Origin: Aureisphaera galaxeae | Lineage (GTDB): Bacteria > Bacteroidota > Bacteroidia > Flavobacteriales > Flavobacteriaceae | Direction: 5' to 3' | Length of the DNA: 64,000 nt | Assembly: GCF_028561275.1 (NCBI RefSeq) | Contig: NZ_JAQQTF010000002.1 | Location: forward strand, 248,001 to 312,000 | Shown here: in pieces, positions 17,118-64,000 of the stretch | Position numbering within the stretch: the stretch's first letter is position 1 | Layout of the letters: each line of letters opens with the position of its first letter | Notes under the pieces: generated by a model | What the model was told of the DNA's origin: nothing | Database searches by the model: none | What the model saw: the letters and a program-made list of their open reading frames with translations, nothing else | Made by a program: the position numbers and the translations under genes

Positions 17118-19049
17118 TTATTTCTTTACGATTCTTTTAGTTATAAGGTTGTTAATATTTATAAAATAAATTCCTTCCGCAAGGGATGAAATGCTAATGT
17201 TTTGTCTTTGTACATCCATGTTACTCATATCGATCAACTGCTTCCCAGTAACATCAAAAATTGCGATGTTGTTAATGTTCTGATTTTCAGAAACTACTGT
17301 AATTTGATCGCTGGATGGATTTGGGAAAATGGATAATCCTTGTTCCAATAGCGATTCAGAAACTCCTAGAGGTTCGTCTACAGTTAAAACGAAAGAACAG
17401 GTGTTCGTATTTCCTTCATCATCTGTAGTTTCAAAAGAAATTGTATGTGTTCCTACAGCCATCTCGGTTCCGGACACCGGGTCTTGGGTAATAGCTAACG
17501 TAGAAGTACAGTTATCGGCTGCTGCCACATCTCCATTCAACACATAGTCCGGTAACGTATAGGTGCTGGTTGCCTCATCGGCTACCACGGTTTCATCTAG
17601 GTGGCAGTCCGTGAATGACGGTGCCATGGTATCTTCTATTGTAATGGTAGCAGTACATGTATCTGTATTTCCTGAAGGATCCGTTACTGTAACTGTTACC
17701 ACATGATCTCCTAGGTCGCTACAATCGAAGCTGTTTTCACTTAGGGTTACGGTATAGGAACCACTGTCATCGCTAGAGCCTCCGTCTACATCACTTCCTG
17801 CAACAATTACGTCTCCGTTACTTCCCAATTGCGCTGTGAAGTCTTGACAAACCGCTACAGGATCTGTGTTGTCTACACCGGCAGCTTTTACCAAGAAAAA
17901 TCCACGGTTAATATCACTAATTACGATGTTTCCACTTCCGAAGTAAGGATAAACGCTCCATGCTCCGTCGAAACTAGCACTGTTGCTTGGTGGATAAGTG
18001 TCGAAGAAACCTTCTTCGGTCATGCTACCACTAGCAATATTGGAAAGATCGATTACACGAAGTCCAGCTCGGTAATTTGCCATATAATATTTGTTGCCTT
18101 TTACATAACCATTGTGGTCAATTGCTGCAGTAGGTCCCGTATAGTCGAAATGGTGTTGAGGGTTGTCTAAGTCTTCGAAATCGAAAACAATGGTTCGAGT
18201 ATTGAATCCAAAATTCAATTCGTCGGTTTCGTCTCCCAAGATGAAATATCTCTGATCTTCAGTGAACCACCCTTGGTGCGTATACCCCACATTGCCATAG
18301 GAAATGGAAGAAATGTTTTGTGGATTGGACTTATCGGTAATGTCTACAATCACTACTTCATTTTCGTTACTTCCAATAAGAATTTCCCTTCCTGTATAAT
18401 CTGAATCTGGACCATTGTAGGTAACCACCTGTGCATCGTGACTATAGTCATCCATTCCGTATCCACCTTCCCCAACTGGGTTCTGAGGGTCTTGGATATT
18501 GATGAAGACAGGACCTCCGTTGAATAGGCTGGACCCAACAGGATAAGCATATCCTGTATCTTCGTTGATTACAATGTTGTGGGCATCGCCAAAACCATTG
18601 TAGTGAGCATCTTCGGAGAAGGTTACCGGTGGGTTGGTTACATTTCTCAATCGAGTTAGATCGAATACCTGCATTCCGTGTCCACCAGCTTCACTTACAA
18701 CAAAAGCATGGTTGTTGTATGTTTTAACATCTCTCCAAGAACTACTCGTGGTATGAGTAGGTAACTTTCCAAGATAAACAGGGTTTACGGGGTCGGATAC
18801 ATCAATAAAAGCCGTTCCGTTGTTCAGGGCAATGATGGCATATTCTTTTCCGTCCAAGTCATCGGTCCATCCCCAGGAATCATTTCCGGAGCCGGCATTA
18901 AGCCCACTAAGGTTTATGTGTGATTGCAGATCGTACCCATTACATGGATACGCTCCTGCAGATCCTCCGGTACATGGGGTCTGAGCTACGGCACATTGAA
19001 TAGAAACCGCTGCAAATAGAAAAAGTAGGTTTTTCATAAGTAAGTTCAA
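17118..19049 (-). CDS. Choice-of-anchor B family protein with two HYR-like domains, T9SS cargo (copy 2)
   Basis: The 643-residue paralogue has a signal peptide ending near CAVAQ. Its propeller (about 22-390) is the same as in copy 1. It then carries two extra HYR/Ig-like domains at about 395-560, recognisable from DNTDPVAVCQDFTAQLG, TVTVTDPSGNTDTC and FETTDDEGNTNTCSF, and finally a T9SS type A domain (LSIFPNPSSDQITV). The extra domains make it about 170 residues longer than its neighbours. HYR domains are usually adhesion-type spacers, so this copy may reach further from the cell. The gap to the upstream copy is 22 bp. Confidence 0.93.
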   Translation of the reverse strand: MNLLMKNLLFLFAAVSIQCAVAQTPCTGGSAGAYPCNGYDLQSHINLSGLNAGSGNDSWGWTDDLDGKEYAIIALNNGTAFIDVSDPVNPVYLGKLPTHTTSSSWRDVKTYNNHAFVVSEAGGHGMQVFDLTRLRNVTNPPVTFSEDAHYNGFGDAHNIVINEDTGYAYPVGSSLFNGGPVFINIQDPQNPVGEGGYGMDDYSHDAQVVTYNGPDSDYTGREILIGSNENEVVIVDITDKSNPQNISSISYGNVGYTHQGWFTEDQRYFILGDETDELNFGFNTRTIVFDFEDLDNPQHHFDYTGPTAAIDHNGYVKGNKYYMANYRAGLRVIDLSNIASGSMTEEGFFDTYPPSNSASFDGAWSVYPYFGSGNIVISDINRGFFLVKAAGVDNTDPVAVCQDFTAQLGSNGDVIVAGSDVDGGSSDDSGSYTVTLSENSFDCSDLGDHVVTVTVTDPSGNTDTCTATITIEDTMAPSFTDCHLDETVVADEATSTYTLPDYVLNGDVAAADNCTSTLAITQDPVSGTEMAVGTHTISFETTDDEGNTNTCSFVLTVDEPLGVSESLLEQGLSIFPNPSSDQITVVSENQNINNIAIFDVTGKQLIDMSNMDVQRQNISISSLAEGIYFININNLITKRIVKK

Positions 19050-58953: not shown

Positions 58954-59688
58954 TTATAGTTTCTTCAAAATATGCTGAGCGTCCTTGTATTCGTCCGCAG
59001 TATCGGGAATCGTTCTAAAGAGGGCTTTAGCCTCTTCTATATTATTCCTTTTCCATAAGCTAACGGCCTTATAGAAGGTCGCTTTGTACTTGTAGAGCGA
59101 ATTGCCCGTTTGTAGACGCTCGTATAGACTGTCCGAATCCGAATATTGCGCTAAGGCATCATGGGACAACGCCTTGTAGAAAAGTAGTTCTGAGTTCTCA
59201 GAGTCATTTTCCAATGCAATGGTGAAATTGGCAATTGCATCTTCATAGGAACCTTCATTGAATGCGGTTTCCGCTTGCTTAAGGACTTCAGTATCTGCAC
59301 TACGTTCGGTTAAGGTGATTTGCTCAGAAAAGCTGTAATCTCCAGGTGCTGCAGGCCCCATATTCTGAATCACAAAAAATCCGATGAGTAGCGCTATGGA
59401 AGCTGCGATTCCGTATTGCCAAGGACGGAACTTGATTACTTTGGTTTCTTTCTCTTCAGAAGACCCTTTGTCGAAATAGTCATTTCCTATGTTTTCCAGT
59501 TGGTTTTTGAAATCGGCCCGTTCTTCAGAAAATTCGTGCGCCAAATGGGTCCTAAGTTCTTTGTAAGTATCAAAATCCTTGGCGAAGGATGTATCTTCGG
59601 CCAAGCGTTTTTCGAATGCCAATCGATCGGCTTCAGAAAGGAGTCCTTCCAGATAATCTTCAAATAATATGGTAGTAGCCTCGTCCAT
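58954..59688 (-). CDS. Anti-sigma-like membrane protein with TPR domain
   Basis: The 244-residue protein has a cytoplasmic N-terminal region (FEDYLEGLLSEADRLAFEKR, 9-28) like the sigma-binding arm of Bacteroidota anti-sigma factors. One transmembrane helix (about 91-107, YGIAASIALLIGFFVIQN) and a periplasmic TPR-like region (130-240) follow. No zinc-finger HC2 motif is seen. It starts 6 bp after the sigma gene, so they form an operon. It presumably holds the sigma factor in check, but this is inferred only from position and topology. Confidence 0.82.
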   Translation of the reverse strand: MDEATTILFEDYLEGLLSEADRLAFEKRLAEDTSFAKDFDTYKELRTHLAHEFSEERADFKNQLENIGNDYFDKGSSEEKETKVIKFRPWQYGIAASIALLIGFFVIQNMGPAAPGDYSFSEQITLTERSADTEVLKQAETAFNEGSYEDAIANFTIALENDSENSELLFYKALSHDALAQYSDSDSLYERLQTGNSLYKYKATFYKAVSLWKRNNIEEAKALFRTIPDTADEYKDAQHILKKL

Positions 59689-59694
59689 GGGGTA

Positions 59695-60279
59695 TTAAAG
59701 TTCTTTTAATTGTTTGTACACTTGGGATTCCTGAGCCCACTTGGTGAGTTGGCCAATACAAAGGGACTTTTTCTTTCGCGCATACGCATAGGAAATATTA
59801 AGCTGTGACGCTATTTCTTCCATAGAAAAACTTCCGAAGGACAACTGCAAGATTTCTTTACAGGTATCTCCCAATTTTTGAAACAGTTCCTTGAACAGCT
59901 GCATTTTGGTTTCGAAATGTTCGGTTTGCTGCACCTGATCTTGTAGTGTTTCAGAATCAAATCCAGCTAAGGGGTCATTTGTTACCCTTTCCTTCGCACT
60001 TTTTTTCAATCGAGTGAACCACTTCCGCTTACAGATCATAAAAAAGTAAGCATCGAAAGGACAGGTAAGCTTTAAATCTTTGGTTTTGGCTTGGTCATAA
60101 ATAATGAGTAGTACTTCTTGGATAAGATCCTTGGCGGCGTCTTCGTCACCACTGTTTTGCTTTACAAAGCCAATCACCTTAGGAGCGAATTTGGTATAAA
60201 TCTCTTGAATGCGCTTGCCATCGTTCTGTAGCAATGCATCGATATATTTTTGGTCATCATGAACCGTGTTTTGCCCCAT
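59695..60279 (-). CDS. ECF-type RNA polymerase sigma factor
   Basis: The 194-residue protein starts at the ATG at 60277-60279 (MGQNTVHDDQKYIDALLQND). Region 2 spans about 20-90 (YTKFAPKVIGFVKQNSGDED, DLIQEVLLIIYDQA, FDAYFFMICKRKW), and region 4 has the HTH SFGSFSMEEIASQLNISYAY (about 143-170). It is an extracytoplasmic-function-like sigma factor of the Bacteroidota TPR/anti-sigma type. A bipartite box in the gap beside it is repeated 2.7 kb further on, which suggests that it drives the neighbouring secreted-protein genes. Confidence 0.92.
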   Translation of the reverse strand: MGQNTVHDDQKYIDALLQNDGKRIQEIYTKFAPKVIGFVKQNSGDEDAAKDLIQEVLLIIYDQAKTKDLKLTCPFDAYFFMICKRKWFTRLKKSAKERVTNDPLAGFDSETLQDQVQQTEHFETKMQLFKELFQKLGDTCKEILQLSFGSFSMEEIASQLNISYAYARKKKSLCIGQLTKWAQESQVYKQLKEL

Positions 60280-60323
60280 AAACACTTGTAAAAGTAGTTT
60301 AAAGGTAAAAAATTTATCACAGA

Positions 60324-60353
60324 GGGGTAACAATTAAAAGGCTAGTGGATATA
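60324..60353 (+). promoter_or_regulatory. Candidate ECF promoter box, copy 1
   Basis: GGGGTAACAAT (60324-60334) followed by 10 bases and GTGGATATA (60345-60353). The upstream part contains the AAC core common in ECF -35 boxes. It lies 55 bases before the T9SS gene start. Confidence 0.72.
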
Positions 60354-60408
60354 GGAATATGATTCCAGTGAAGAACACTGAAACTAATAACCTTAAAACC
60401 TTTTAATT

Positions 60409-62973
60409 ATGAAAACTATCCATTCACTTACAATGCTATTGCTATTGTTCGTATCGAACGTGGTAATAGGACAAATGAAGGACACCTTAGTGACCTTTCA
60501 AGGAAAACAACTCCATTTCGATTACGATGTGAGTTGGTCTCCTTCCGAATTTCAGGACCGGCTTAACGAATTTAAAGCCAATCAAGCCATGCGTTCGTTT
60601 AAGGCTTCGCCTTCTATTAGTGCGATTTTAGACGACATTCCCATTAGCAACGACCCTTGCCGTAATGGTGGGTTCGAAGATGGGTATAACGATTGGACCG
60701 GATTAAGTCTCACACACAGTTTAACCACCATCCCTATTGAAAATGGTTTGGTAACCAGCCCAGGAATTGCACCGCTTCCCTTTACCGGAACGGGTTTTGG
60801 ACAGAACTATACTTCTTTGGAAACTACGGGGCTTGACCCGGTTATTTCGGTAGCTTCCCCACCATTTCCCCTTCAGCGAACGGCTCCCGGAACTTCGGGA
60901 ACGCAATCCTTACGATTGGGGAACGATCAACCCGGCTTCGGTGCCGAAGGAGTAGCCAAGCGATTCATTGTGACTCCAGACAATGCCGAATATTATTTTC
61001 AGTATGCCATTGTCATGGATAGGAGCCATTCCAATCCCGATGGCTCTATAAACGGGACAGAGGTATTTTTTATCGCTGAGGCCTCAGACATGTCCGGTGC
61101 TACCATCGACAAAGTAGTGGATGTGGGTAATCCGGGAAATCCATTCATCAATGCCGTTAACGGCGGATCTACTTACTTCCGCGATTGGCGTTGTGCTTAT
61201 TTGGACCTTACGTCGCATATTGGACAGGAAGTGGTGATCATGTTCATCAATTCCGACTGTTCTGCTGGAGGGCATAAAGGGTATACCTATGTTGATGATG
61301 TTTGCGAAGAATGCGAAAACGTAAACGAAGGGGATATCGATTTGAACCTTGAAGATGGCGATTGCTTGTACTTCCCATATACAGTAAATGGAGACTTCTT
61401 AGTCCCTGCGGGAGCTACGAGTGTAAACATTACGTTAGAAATTTATCAAAGTAATGTACTGGTAAACACCATTACCTCTCCTTCCATTTCGCCACCTAAC
61501 TACTCCTTCACTTTGGCGCCGACAGATTTTCCAGATCAGACCCCGGGTTCATGTTATGACTTGGTTGCCGTACTTACCTTCGATCTTGTAGATCTTAACG
61601 GAAACGTAGTAACAGTAACGCAAAAGTCCTCCAAGGAGGTATTGGGCGTACAGGATGGAGAGCGTCCAGGGCTTAACAATGATGTTTGCTTCTGCGATGA
61701 CAGCCAGAATGGTGAAGAAGGATCGTATTGCTGTCCAGGAGAGAACCTAGTAACCAATGGGAATTTCGAGTTTGGAAATACAGGTTTCTCCAGCAGTTAT
61801 ATTCAAACTGCTAGTACCTATCCAGGCGAATATGATGTAACGAATACGGCTGCGAATTTCGGCGCTACGGTAACCGATCACTCTTTCTGTGAAGATCCTA
61901 TTACCTATGCAGTGAACGATCAGTTTATGGTCGTAAATGGTCGCACTCAACAAAGTGGTACCGCAATTATTTGGGATCAGACGCTCACCGGTTTGGAGCA
62001 AGGGGAACGTTATAAGTTCTGCGCGAATTTCAAAAATATGCCGCAATGTACTTTCGATATTCTACCTGTAGTTTATATGAATGCAGGAACGACTTCCTCG
62101 GGAGCACAGACCATAAATACCAACCCCACCGATCCTTGCGATTGGCAGACGGTGGAAATCACTTTTACCGCTAGTGGAGGTTCTCAAAACATAAGGATCT
62201 TGTTGGATGAAGGCGGCAATGGAGATGGCAATGACGTGGCCATAGATGACATTTTTGTAGGGCAATTGGCCGATCCGGATTTGCAAATTACCGTACAACA
62301 TGATGGTACCACTAATACCATTACCGGCTCTTTGAATACCATTTCCACGACCGATGATACCTTACACGGTTCCGACTGTGAGTACTACTGGTTTGTGGCA
62401 GAAACAGGATTCCCGTTGTCCATTGACTTTAGCACTTTCGCTTATGGAAATGGCAGTGGTAGTATGTTACCTCCGTTTGCATCAGTGCCAGGACCTGCAT
62501 GGGGACTAACGACGAATTTCCCAGGGTACACCTTTGTGGACAATCAACTTTACATTATAGGGATGTACACGCCAGAATGTGGTTGCTACGATGCTGGGTT
62601 TACCTATCAGTTAACCTTTAACACCTTGCATTCGCAAGATATGGAGGATCAAATGCGGGAGGCTATTATCGATGCCATCCTCAATGGACTCGACGGTACA
62701 CTATCCAATGATAATGAAGTGGAGATAGTACAGGAGAAGATGGTACTCTATCCAAATCCTGCGGAGGATGCATTTACCATTCAATTATTGGATGATACCA
62801 TTACCGAGATTCAAGTTTTGGACATTAGTGGAAAAACGGTAATAGGAGAGAAGAGAAGAGGAGAAAATCAAGCAGAATCTATCGATGTAGCTTCCTTGTC
62901 TACCGGAGTATACTTCGTGAAAGTACAGAGTGCACTTGGTAAGTCCTATAAATCGAAATTAATTAAGCGATAG
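60409..62973 (+). CDS. T9SS cargo protein with carbohydrate-binding-like domains
   Basis: The 854-residue protein has a signal peptide ending VVIGQ and no clear catalytic domain. Two jelly-roll-like domains contain NDPCRNGGFEDGYNDWTGL (about 82-100) and GENLVTNGNFEFGNTGFSSS (about 445-465), both with the GxFExG motif of carbohydrate-binding or adhesion modules. Cysteine pairs are frequent (DVCEECENV). A T9SS type A domain ends the protein (MVLYPNPAEDAFTIQLL to KSKLIKR). The gene follows the sigma/anti-sigma pair divergently and has the shared ECF-like box, so it is probably a target. Confidence 0.9.
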   Translation: MKTIHSLTMLLLLFVSNVVIGQMKDTLVTFQGKQLHFDYDVSWSPSEFQDRLNEFKANQAMRSFKASPSISAILDDIPISNDPCRNGGFEDGYNDWTGLSLTHSLTTIPIENGLVTSPGIAPLPFTGTGFGQNYTSLETTGLDPVISVASPPFPLQRTAPGTSGTQSLRLGNDQPGFGAEGVAKRFIVTPDNAEYYFQYAIVMDRSHSNPDGSINGTEVFFIAEASDMSGATIDKVVDVGNPGNPFINAVNGGSTYFRDWRCAYLDLTSHIGQEVVIMFINSDCSAGGHKGYTYVDDVCEECENVNEGDIDLNLEDGDCLYFPYTVNGDFLVPAGATSVNITLEIYQSNVLVNTITSPSISPPNYSFTLAPTDFPDQTPGSCYDLVAVLTFDLVDLNGNVVTVTQKSSKEVLGVQDGERPGLNNDVCFCDDSQNGEEGSYCCPGENLVTNGNFEFGNTGFSSSYIQTASTYPGEYDVTNTAANFGATVTDHSFCEDPITYAVNDQFMVVNGRTQQSGTAIIWDQTLTGLEQGERYKFCANFKNMPQCTFDILPVVYMNAGTTSSGAQTINTNPTDPCDWQTVEITFTASGGSQNIRILLDEGGNGDGNDVAIDDIFVGQLADPDLQITVQHDGTTNTITGSLNTISTTDDTLHGSDCEYYWFVAETGFPLSIDFSTFAYGNGSGSMLPPFASVPGPAWGLTTNFPGYTFVDNQLYIIGMYTPECGCYDAGFTYQLTFNTLHSQDMEDQMREAIIDAILNGLDGTLSNDNEVEIVQEKMVLYPNPAEDAFTIQLLDDTITEIQVLDISGKTVIGEKRRGENQAESIDVASLSTGVYFVKVQSALGKSYKSKLIKR

Positions 62974-62990
62974 CCTTAGAGCCCTTCGCT

Positions 62991-63030
62991 AAAAGCCCTT
63001 TGGATACCCTATCTCCAAGGGGCTTTTTAA
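62991..63030 (+). terminator. Rho-independent terminator after the T9SS gene
   Basis: AAAAGCCCTTTGGA (62991-63004) pairs with TCCAAGGGGCTTTT (63014-63027), with one wobble, and ends in a T run. Confidence 0.82.
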
Positions 63031-63045
63031 TTTTTTTCAAAATAA

Positions 63046-63075
63046 GGGGTAACAATGTTTAGGGTGGTGGATATA
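63046..63075 (+). promoter_or_regulatory. Candidate ECF promoter box, copy 2
   Basis: GGGGTAACAAT (63046-63056), 10 bases, then GTGGATATA (63067-63075): identical boxes and identical spacing to copy 1, 33 bases before the next gene. Confidence 0.72.
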
Positions 63076-63108: not shown

Positions 63109-64000
63109 ATGAAAACTAAATTACTTCTTTCGACCCTAACCTTTTTTATGAGCCTTTACATGGCCGCGCAGTACCAAACCAATGTAAGCGTAGCCAATGA
63201 ACACTATCACGATCTAAATCAGACTATCATTAACGATGGTACCGATGACATTATGGTCGCTTCCAATTTATTCGATCCCGGTATGACCAATCAAGTAATT
63301 TCTTTGAAGAGAATTAATCAATTTGGAAATGTAGTTTGGGCAAGGGAATATGACGCCCTTCCTTTGGTAAACGCAAGGGTATTCGACATTGTAAACCGTT
63401 TCGATTTGGTATACATCACCGGATCGGTAGATGTAGGAGGAATTAAGAGAGTCTTTATCGCCGAGATTGACGCTGCCACTGGCGGGGTATTAAACTCACA
63501 ATTCTATGACATTGTTTCTCCTAACTTTAATTCAAGAGGATTGCATATTGAATACACCGAAAGCGACGCCGATGGCGATGGAGCTCCAGACCCAGGATTG
63601 GTAGTAGGTGGTTTCTTTAGCGATTGCTATAATTTGAGTACTACCTGTATTAACAATATAGGGTTTGTATTACGCACGGATGCTGGTCTAAACCACATTT
63701 GGGCAGCTGAGTTAGATGCTCTGGCTCCCGGTGCTTCGGCAGACTACGATTTTGTAAACCGTATCACAGAAACCAGCGATGGCTTTTTCCTTACCGGAAG
63801 TGCTACAGGATTGAATTCCTCTAGCTTTACCCAACAAGGAGTATTGGCCCATAAGATCGATTTTATGGGGAACCCGATTTGGGACAATAGCTATCTCTTT
63901 GGAAACTCTCAGGATGTCAGTGTAGATGCTTACTATGATGCTGGAACCAATGAGATTTATATGTTGGCCAACTATTCCGTTTCCCACTATTTCGGGGTAA
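63109..64000 (+). CDS. Secreted repeat protein, 3' end cut by window
   Basis: The frame is open from the ATG at 63109 to the window edge, about 297 residues. It has a signal peptide (MKTKLLLSTLTFFMSLYMAAQ) and a propeller-like mature part with repeats such as ISLKRINQFGNVVWAREYD, VFIAEIDAATGGVLNSQFYD and GFFLTGSATGLN. The C-terminus is missing; a T9SS domain is expected from context but not seen. It shares the ECF-like box with the previous gene and is likely a co-regulated cargo. Confidence 0.88.
   Translation, partial: MKTKLLLSTLTFFMSLYMAAQYQTNVSVANEHYHDLNQTIINDGTDDIMVASNLFDPGMTNQVISLKRINQFGNVVWAREYDALPLVNARVFDIVNRFDLVYITGSVDVGGIKRVFIAEIDAATGGVLNSQFYDIVSPNFNSRGLHIEYTESDADGDGAPDPGLVVGGFFSDCYNLSTTCINNIGFVLRTDAGLNHIWAAELDALAPGASADYDFVNRITETSDGFFLTGSATGLNSSSFTQQGVLAHKIDFMGNPIWDNSYLFGNSQDVSVDAYYDAGTNEIYMLANYSVSHYFGV

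Follow-up and report, generated by a model that had tools for sequence, protein, structure and literature searches.

A bipartite box that stands before genes for secreted proteins in the window, i.e., in the whole stretch of 64,000 nucleotides that was analyzed, can be assigned with a probability of about 0.9 as the -35/-10 promoter of the ECF sigma factor encoded next to it, which would govern a small regulon that limits itself by negative feedback. We infer that the boxes act as transcription starts and that they would be read by this sigma factor. The box recurs beside the sigma gene across dozens of flavobacterial genera, and what is new here is a copy of the box inside the sigma coding sequence that faces the gene for the putative inhibitor. 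To our knowledge, Bacteroidota contain many ECF factors without known targets; one orthologous ECF group, present in 54 of 400 sampled family genomes, would thereby gain a defined promoter, a short list of targets and a feedback loop that can be put to the test. The features concerned are the following (coordinates in the window, strand, description):

58954..59688, minus, putative anti-sigma factor, 244 aa, TPR hits, one TM helix, beside the sigma gene
59695..60279, minus, ECF sigma factor, 194 aa, ATG start, TIGR02937 4e-17, PF04542 3e-7
59958..59986, minus, intragenic box GGTAACAA-N15-GATTTG, with codon constraint
60300..60307, minus, TACCTTTA, probable sigma-gene promoter, close to the -7 box TAnnTTTG
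60324..60353, plus, box copy 1, -35 core GGTAACAA at 60326-60333, -10 core GATATA at 60348-60353
60409..62973, plus, 854-aa secreted protein, proposed target of box 1, PF18962 1.3e-16, weak CBM_4_9
63046..63075, plus, box copy 2, 33 nt ahead of the ATG of the 580-aa T9SS protein
63109..64000 and past the window end, plus, 580-aa secreted protein, proposed target of box 2, PF18962 2e-9

The box and the genes behind it

The preliminary description of this DNA had reported two exact copies of GGGGTAACAAT-N10-GTGGATATA, with identical boxes and differing intervening bases, upstream of secreted-protein genes and beside an ECF sigma gene, and these statements hold. A pattern search of the window returned the exact copies at 60324-60353 and 63046-63075 and no further match to the full pattern with up to three mismatches, while 100 dinucleotide shuffles of the window gave a mean of 0.01 matches and in no case two. 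The ten intervening bases vary between copies (TAAAAGGCTA, GTTTAGGGTG, TCAAAACCGT). Both boxes are present as drawn, although slightly over-long when compared with the core conserved in the genus and beyond, (G)GGTAACAA-N14-GATATA. Box copy 1 is divergent from the sigma gene and lies 55 nt ahead of the ATG of the 854-aa protein; the corresponding distance for box copy 2 is given above. Both genes encode the C-terminal sorting domain of T9SS cargo (Por_Secre_tail, PF18962; type A in the 854-aa protein).

A genome scan with mismatches, as had been suggested, found the box to be rare. In the 4,589,649 bases on 19 contigs, pattern searches with mismatch limits yielded five matches to the full pattern at up to three mismatches, the two window copies included. 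A third local copy, 1.9 kb outside the window, has one mismatch (contig C12:312946-312975, beyond position 64,000), another match has two mismatches (C11:349541-349570), and a three-mismatch site at C12:809947 was rejected because it is at chance level, the reversed control also yielding one. The core GGTAACAA-N14-GATATA has five exact sites in the genome versus about 0.03 expected from base counting with 14 specified bases, and reversed core controls gave no site at zero mismatches. Three of the five are local, one precedes a small RNA and the MerR-crt operon, and one precedes the gene for a large exported protein.

The full frame of the 580-aa protein spans L006:5110-6852. In the same locus, beyond the window, box 3 is followed by a four-gene run for two lipoproteins, a PKD/DUF7619/DUF7849 protein and finally a TPR-CHAT protein (PF12770, 1.9e-43, with TPRs) that carries the motifs HISTHA and SACETG and, at its C-terminal end, a TM helix. 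In other genera, the box stands before an operon for lipoprotein, PKD/DUF7849 and CHAT proteins. As both T9SS proteins occur, within this sample, almost only in the window's genus, the secreted-protein regulon appears to be a local elaboration of a wider ECF/TPR/CHAT module. The earlier expectation of further targets was thus borne out by the third local unit and two distant sites, although the T9SS cargo turned out to be a genus-level addition.

Several observations on these loci stand on their own. A lipoprotein of the CHAT operon (L142:2788-3816) has a predicted beta-rich fold (pLDDT 85) and no Pfam family; a fold match to the UNC5b cytoplasmic (ZU5-type) region was weak (E=1.4e-3, TM 0.29) and was not used. 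Rfam family RF02914 (DUF805b RNA) occurs in 5' leaders of T9SS/export genes of these ECF/CHAT loci (L050:8513-8547, L051:8780-8815, L055:10248-10282 and 17144-17179, L054:2712-2744) and directly 3' of box 1 in genomes G007 and G005. Perfect core boxes also stand before two small, seemingly unrelated lipoprotein genes in L083 and L081 (G008 C6:83396 and G007 C93:30118), which are probably further genus-level members of the regulon.

One of the two distant sites is a perfect core about 240 nt upstream of an operon for a MerR regulator with a B12-binding domain and carotenoid (crt) genes, and behind this core comes a segment that contains GAAACATAAAGTAA ... CTAAAAAGAAACAT. The other site lies about 60 nt ahead of the gene for a protein of 1079 aa that appears to carry an export signal. 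Box and segment are found at the same place in G007 (exact) and G006 (one mismatch) and, elsewhere in the genome, in G008, so that the segment is a unit of its own. Its copies in the window's genome are:

L007:9477-9523 (G000 C11:349477-349523), minus, small RNA copy, structured segment
C14:220714 and C14:868603, further small RNA copies

The segment is present in 126 of the 400 family genomes, the reversed pattern in none. Across 32 copies it forms two helices with 75 double-sided changes versus 28.6 in shuffles, and the covariation score is 0.457 versus 0.185. The structure consists of an outer stem NNNNAUG/CAUNNNN, an invariant internal loop AAACAUAAAGUAA / CUAAAAAGAAA and a variable inner hairpin, and a search of Rfam gave no match for this small RNA. 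Many other copies are preceded by a sigma54-like TTGGCA...TTTG promoter and followed by a terminator-like hairpin, and one of the two further copies in the window's genome likewise has both the sigma54-like promoter and the hairpin. Small RNAs with sigma54 (Rfp36) and ECF (Rfp11) promoters have been reported for F. psychrophilum (PMC9723704).

Several ECF factors with overlapping -35 specificity might be at work, in which case the distant sites, i.e., those before the RNA and before the C16 protein, would belong to others. Two other ECF/TPR/CHAT loci of the genome with GGGTAACAA or GGGTAACGG before divergent genes speak for such an arrangement; however, both lack GATATA, and the RNA site is retained in G007, G006 and G008, all of which have the orthologous sigma factor. 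We regard this division of the sites as unlikely, though worth keeping in mind, and assign the distant sites to the adjacent sigma factor, while some cross-reading by other ECF factors is possible because the paralogous loci share a GGGTAAC-like -35. Two ECF loci of this genome (L054 and L055; G000 C16:192000-211900 and C12:34000-53900) have a partner gene, a CHAT-like frame of 919-921 aa and a GGGTAAC -35-like stretch combined with a different -10, and are possibly parallel modules with their own specificity.

The sigma gene, its putative inhibitor and the intragenic box

The sigma factor has the build of an ECF (group 4) protein, with sigma-70 regions 2 and 4 only and a length of about 200 aa. 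TIGR02937 spans residues 42-198 of the 212-aa frame that begins at a TTG (4.2e-17; PF04542 3.1e-7); a frame beginning at this TTG (60333) would run into box 1. A PDB search with the sigma profile gave no match at 1e-5. An AAC-containing -35 with a short -10 about 16 nt away, as is typical for this group, is found in GGTAACAA-N14/15-GATATA, which is kept together with the sigma gene and would thus fit as its promoter. On the sigma strand upstream of the sigma ATG, no box was found and only a -7 box of the primary type is present, the octamer TACCTTTA. It resembles TAnnTTTG, the -7 box of the Bacteroidetes primary sigma factor (PMC9723704), has a similar counterpart at the equivalent place in five members of the genus, and is the probable promoter of the sigma gene. 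With this octamer and no box on its own strand, the sigma gene is probably not self-activated.

In every locus that yielded the putative inhibitor gene, this gene adjoins the sigma gene. An AlphaFold model of the protein (pLDDT 86.6, pTM 0.55) has four N-terminal helices (residues 3-73), a disordered link, a TM helix (90-109) and a TPR part (134-243). Searches with the sequence brought up no known anti-sigma domain at a significant level (zf-HC2 in the profile search: E=0.2), and the fold search returned TPR proteins only, which match the TPR part. Ubiquitin fusions retrieved from a PDB search with the N-terminus were judged spurious. In class I anti-sigma factors (ASD-I), which are encoded beside their sigma gene, a cytoplasmic helical domain that binds sigma precedes a TM helix. 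The modeled architecture would fit a membrane anti-sigma factor, and we infer that the TPR protein binds and inhibits the sigma factor.

The intragenic box lies on the sense strand of the sigma gene and is aimed at the anti-sigma-like gene, the ATG of which (59688) follows 270 nt on. V99 is encoded by GTA and T100 by ACA in 56 of 56 dereplicated orthologues, versus about one-third codon use elsewhere in these genes. The codon information at the two positions reaches 1.57 and 1.59 bits; the next column, a serine, has 0.94, and the median of the 71 columns is 0.13. At a spacing of N15 lies another fixed segment, ATCT(A), which is invariant outside the window's genus; within that genus it reads GGATTT or GGATAT. 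The A of this segment occupies a third codon position, although the residue encoded there differs among the orthologues (Val, Ala, Thr, Gly, Pro, Leu); the codon after the fixed A is TCT in 43 of 44 cases. One could argue that demands of the protein or of translation preserve the intragenic GGTAACA, as the encoded V99-T100 is invariant in the alignment. Yet other invariant degenerate residues, of which the serine comes closest, are without such codon fixation, and a third-position A that is fixed while the amino acid changes, exactly at the N15 spacing, is hard to reconcile with a demand of the protein, which makes this explanation very unlikely. The codon patterns show that selection at the intragenic copy acts on nucleotides, at promoter spacing and toward the inhibitor gene. 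The intragenic box is very probably a sigma-dependent promoter of the inhibitor gene and would provide negative feedback. Since its -10 differs (ATCTA; GATTTG in the window), this promoter may be weak. An intragenic promoter can, it seems, be detected from synonymous sites alone.

Co-occurrence of box and sigma gene in the genus and the family

Five of nine genomes of the window's genus have an orthologue of the sigma factor (70-100% identity), and all five contain one to five exact core sites, 18 in total, whereas none of the four genomes without the orthologue has any. Box 1 is kept at the same position in G005-G008, and box 2, with its N14 core, likewise precedes the orthologue of its gene in G005 and in G008. 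In G007 the 854-aa gene has been lost and box 1 is retained, now ahead of the 580-aa gene. In G005 and G008 genes have been inserted, yet the box remains before each target.

For the family, an even draw of 400 genomes was used with an orthologue cut-off of E<=1e-45, which gave the 54 genomes with the sigma orthologue mentioned above. In 398 of these genomes, a comparison that leaves out two N14 members of the genus, the box with a spacer of 15 occurs in 48 of 52 genomes with the sigma gene versus 10 of 346 without it (Fisher p=5e-47), and the latter rate falls within that of the reversed-pattern control, i.e., a few per cent of genomes. A further 80 named loci (Flavobacterium, Dokdonia, Aquimarina, Ulvibacter, and others), of which 77 were analyzable, had yielded boxes in only 5 of 77 cases in a first scan for N14 alone, because the spacer there is N15. 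With N15, the box is divergent from the sigma gene in 73 of 77 loci and lies further out, in the same direction, in the other four; 53 of 77 carry at least two copies ahead of reading frames (reversed control: 0), and only 3 of 177 sites counted lie inside a frame without a nearby start. The draw of 400 genomes is the fairer test, as the 80 named loci are mostly from Flavobacterium and not independent. In the aligned columns, GGTAACA(A) and GAT.T(A) are essentially invariant, the spacer is free in sequence and a weaker conserved stretch follows 3' of the -10. Since the core itself served for site selection, the fixed spacing and the flanking positions are the informative part. Nearly all genera have a spacer of exactly 15 and the window's genus one of 14, which offers a chance to watch ECF spacing evolve with the sigma factor (L142-L221 versus the genus). 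Within the window's genus, boxes are N14, yet the intragenic copy keeps 15.

The reading as a sigma promoter, already put forward in the preliminary description, gains support from this phylogenetic footprinting, in which the box follows the sigma gene and not merely the neighborhood. If the box were no sigma promoter and instead served some other DNA-binding activator or repressor as its operator, a two-part site of 30 bp whose centers lie about two helical turns apart would indeed suit a regulator that binds in tandem. However, the halves are neither repeats nor palindromes, the orientation to the gene is fixed and the distance promoter-like, the change of the spacer (14 or 15) goes with lineage, presence of the box tracks the sigma gene across the family, and among the loci compared no further regulator gene was conspicuously conserved; taken together, this makes an operator highly improbable. 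That the identical boxes are remnants of a recent segmental duplication of an upstream region, as the similar AATTATGAAAACTA stretch at the end of both T9SS leaders might suggest, can practically be dismissed, because the spacers differ, the flanks beyond the boxes differ and do not align, and the boxes are kept across genera with unrelated flanks.

Proposed mechanism and relation to known systems

According to the model that we propose for the ECF promoter, a primary-sigma promoter would provide basal expression of the sigma gene, and the sigma factor would be held by the TPR-bearing membrane protein encoded beside it. Once released, it would start transcription at every copy of the box, i.e., before the genes for the two T9SS surface proteins, the lipoprotein/PKD/CHAT operon, the small RNA and the gene for the large exported protein. 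The intragenic copy would give rise to a transcript of the inhibitor gene only and lead to shut-off. An orphan type of ECF/TPR/CHAT locus would thus become assayable in a laboratory strain; a strain of the laboratory species Flavobacterium johnsoniae is among the named loci (L193) and has the box there with N15.

Envelope-type ECF regulons that include small RNAs are exemplified by sigmaE of E. coli with RybB and MicA. The regulon proposed here would be similar in combining an ECF factor with a small RNA; the RNA is unrelated, and it is a candidate member because of its upstream box. ECF control tied to type IX secretion in Bacteroidota would be a trait shared with the PorXY-SigP system of Porphyromonas gingivalis, which controls the T9SS machinery (PMC4800418), and with the SM6 ECF motif of F. 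psychrophilum, which has a CGT-type -10 and a list of sites that includes the small RNA Rfp11 (PMC9723704). While those systems control the machinery, the targets here would be cargo and a CHAT operon, and GATATA would be a non-classical ECF -10, as it is unlike the CGT-type -10 of the F. psychrophilum motif (PMC9723704).

In the CASP system (Cas7-11/Csx29/Csx30/CASP-sigma), a TPR-CHAT protease cleaves the sigma inhibitor (PMC10028731). The loci studied here share with it an ECF-type sigma factor, a putative sigma inhibitor, a TPR-CHAT protein with the presumed catalytic His and Cys in the HISTHA and SACETG motifs, and three sigma motifs within the locus. They differ in that no Cas protein was found among the genes read in the loci and in that the CHAT protein seems to be exported and membrane-anchored. 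By analogy, the TPR part of the inhibitor could be what the exported CHAT protein acts on. A more far-reaching and rather doubtful scheme would be a widespread flavobacterial stress module, in which an exported, caspase-like TPR-CHAT protease, produced under the ECF sigma factor, acts on the periplasmic TPR part of the inhibitor (positive loop), the intragenic promoter renews the inhibitor (negative loop), and the genus has captured a conserved small structured RNA that is absent from Rfam and of which the same genome also holds a version with a sigma54-type promoter. A literature search did not retrieve a link between ECF factors, CHAT and TPR proteins in Bacteroidetes.

The closest parallel to the feedback arrangement is sigH-rshA of Corynebacterium glutamicum, for which it has been demonstrated that the sigma operon has SigA-type promoters, while a SigH promoter located inside sigH transcribes rshA alone, for shut-off (PMC3489674). 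Phylum and promoter sequence (GGAA/GTT-type in sigH-rshA) are different, and the inhibitor here is a TM-TPR protein. The combination of a promoter of the housekeeping type for the sigma gene with a sigma-dependent intragenic promoter for the anti-sigma gene alone is the same, proposed in the present case from comparative evidence.
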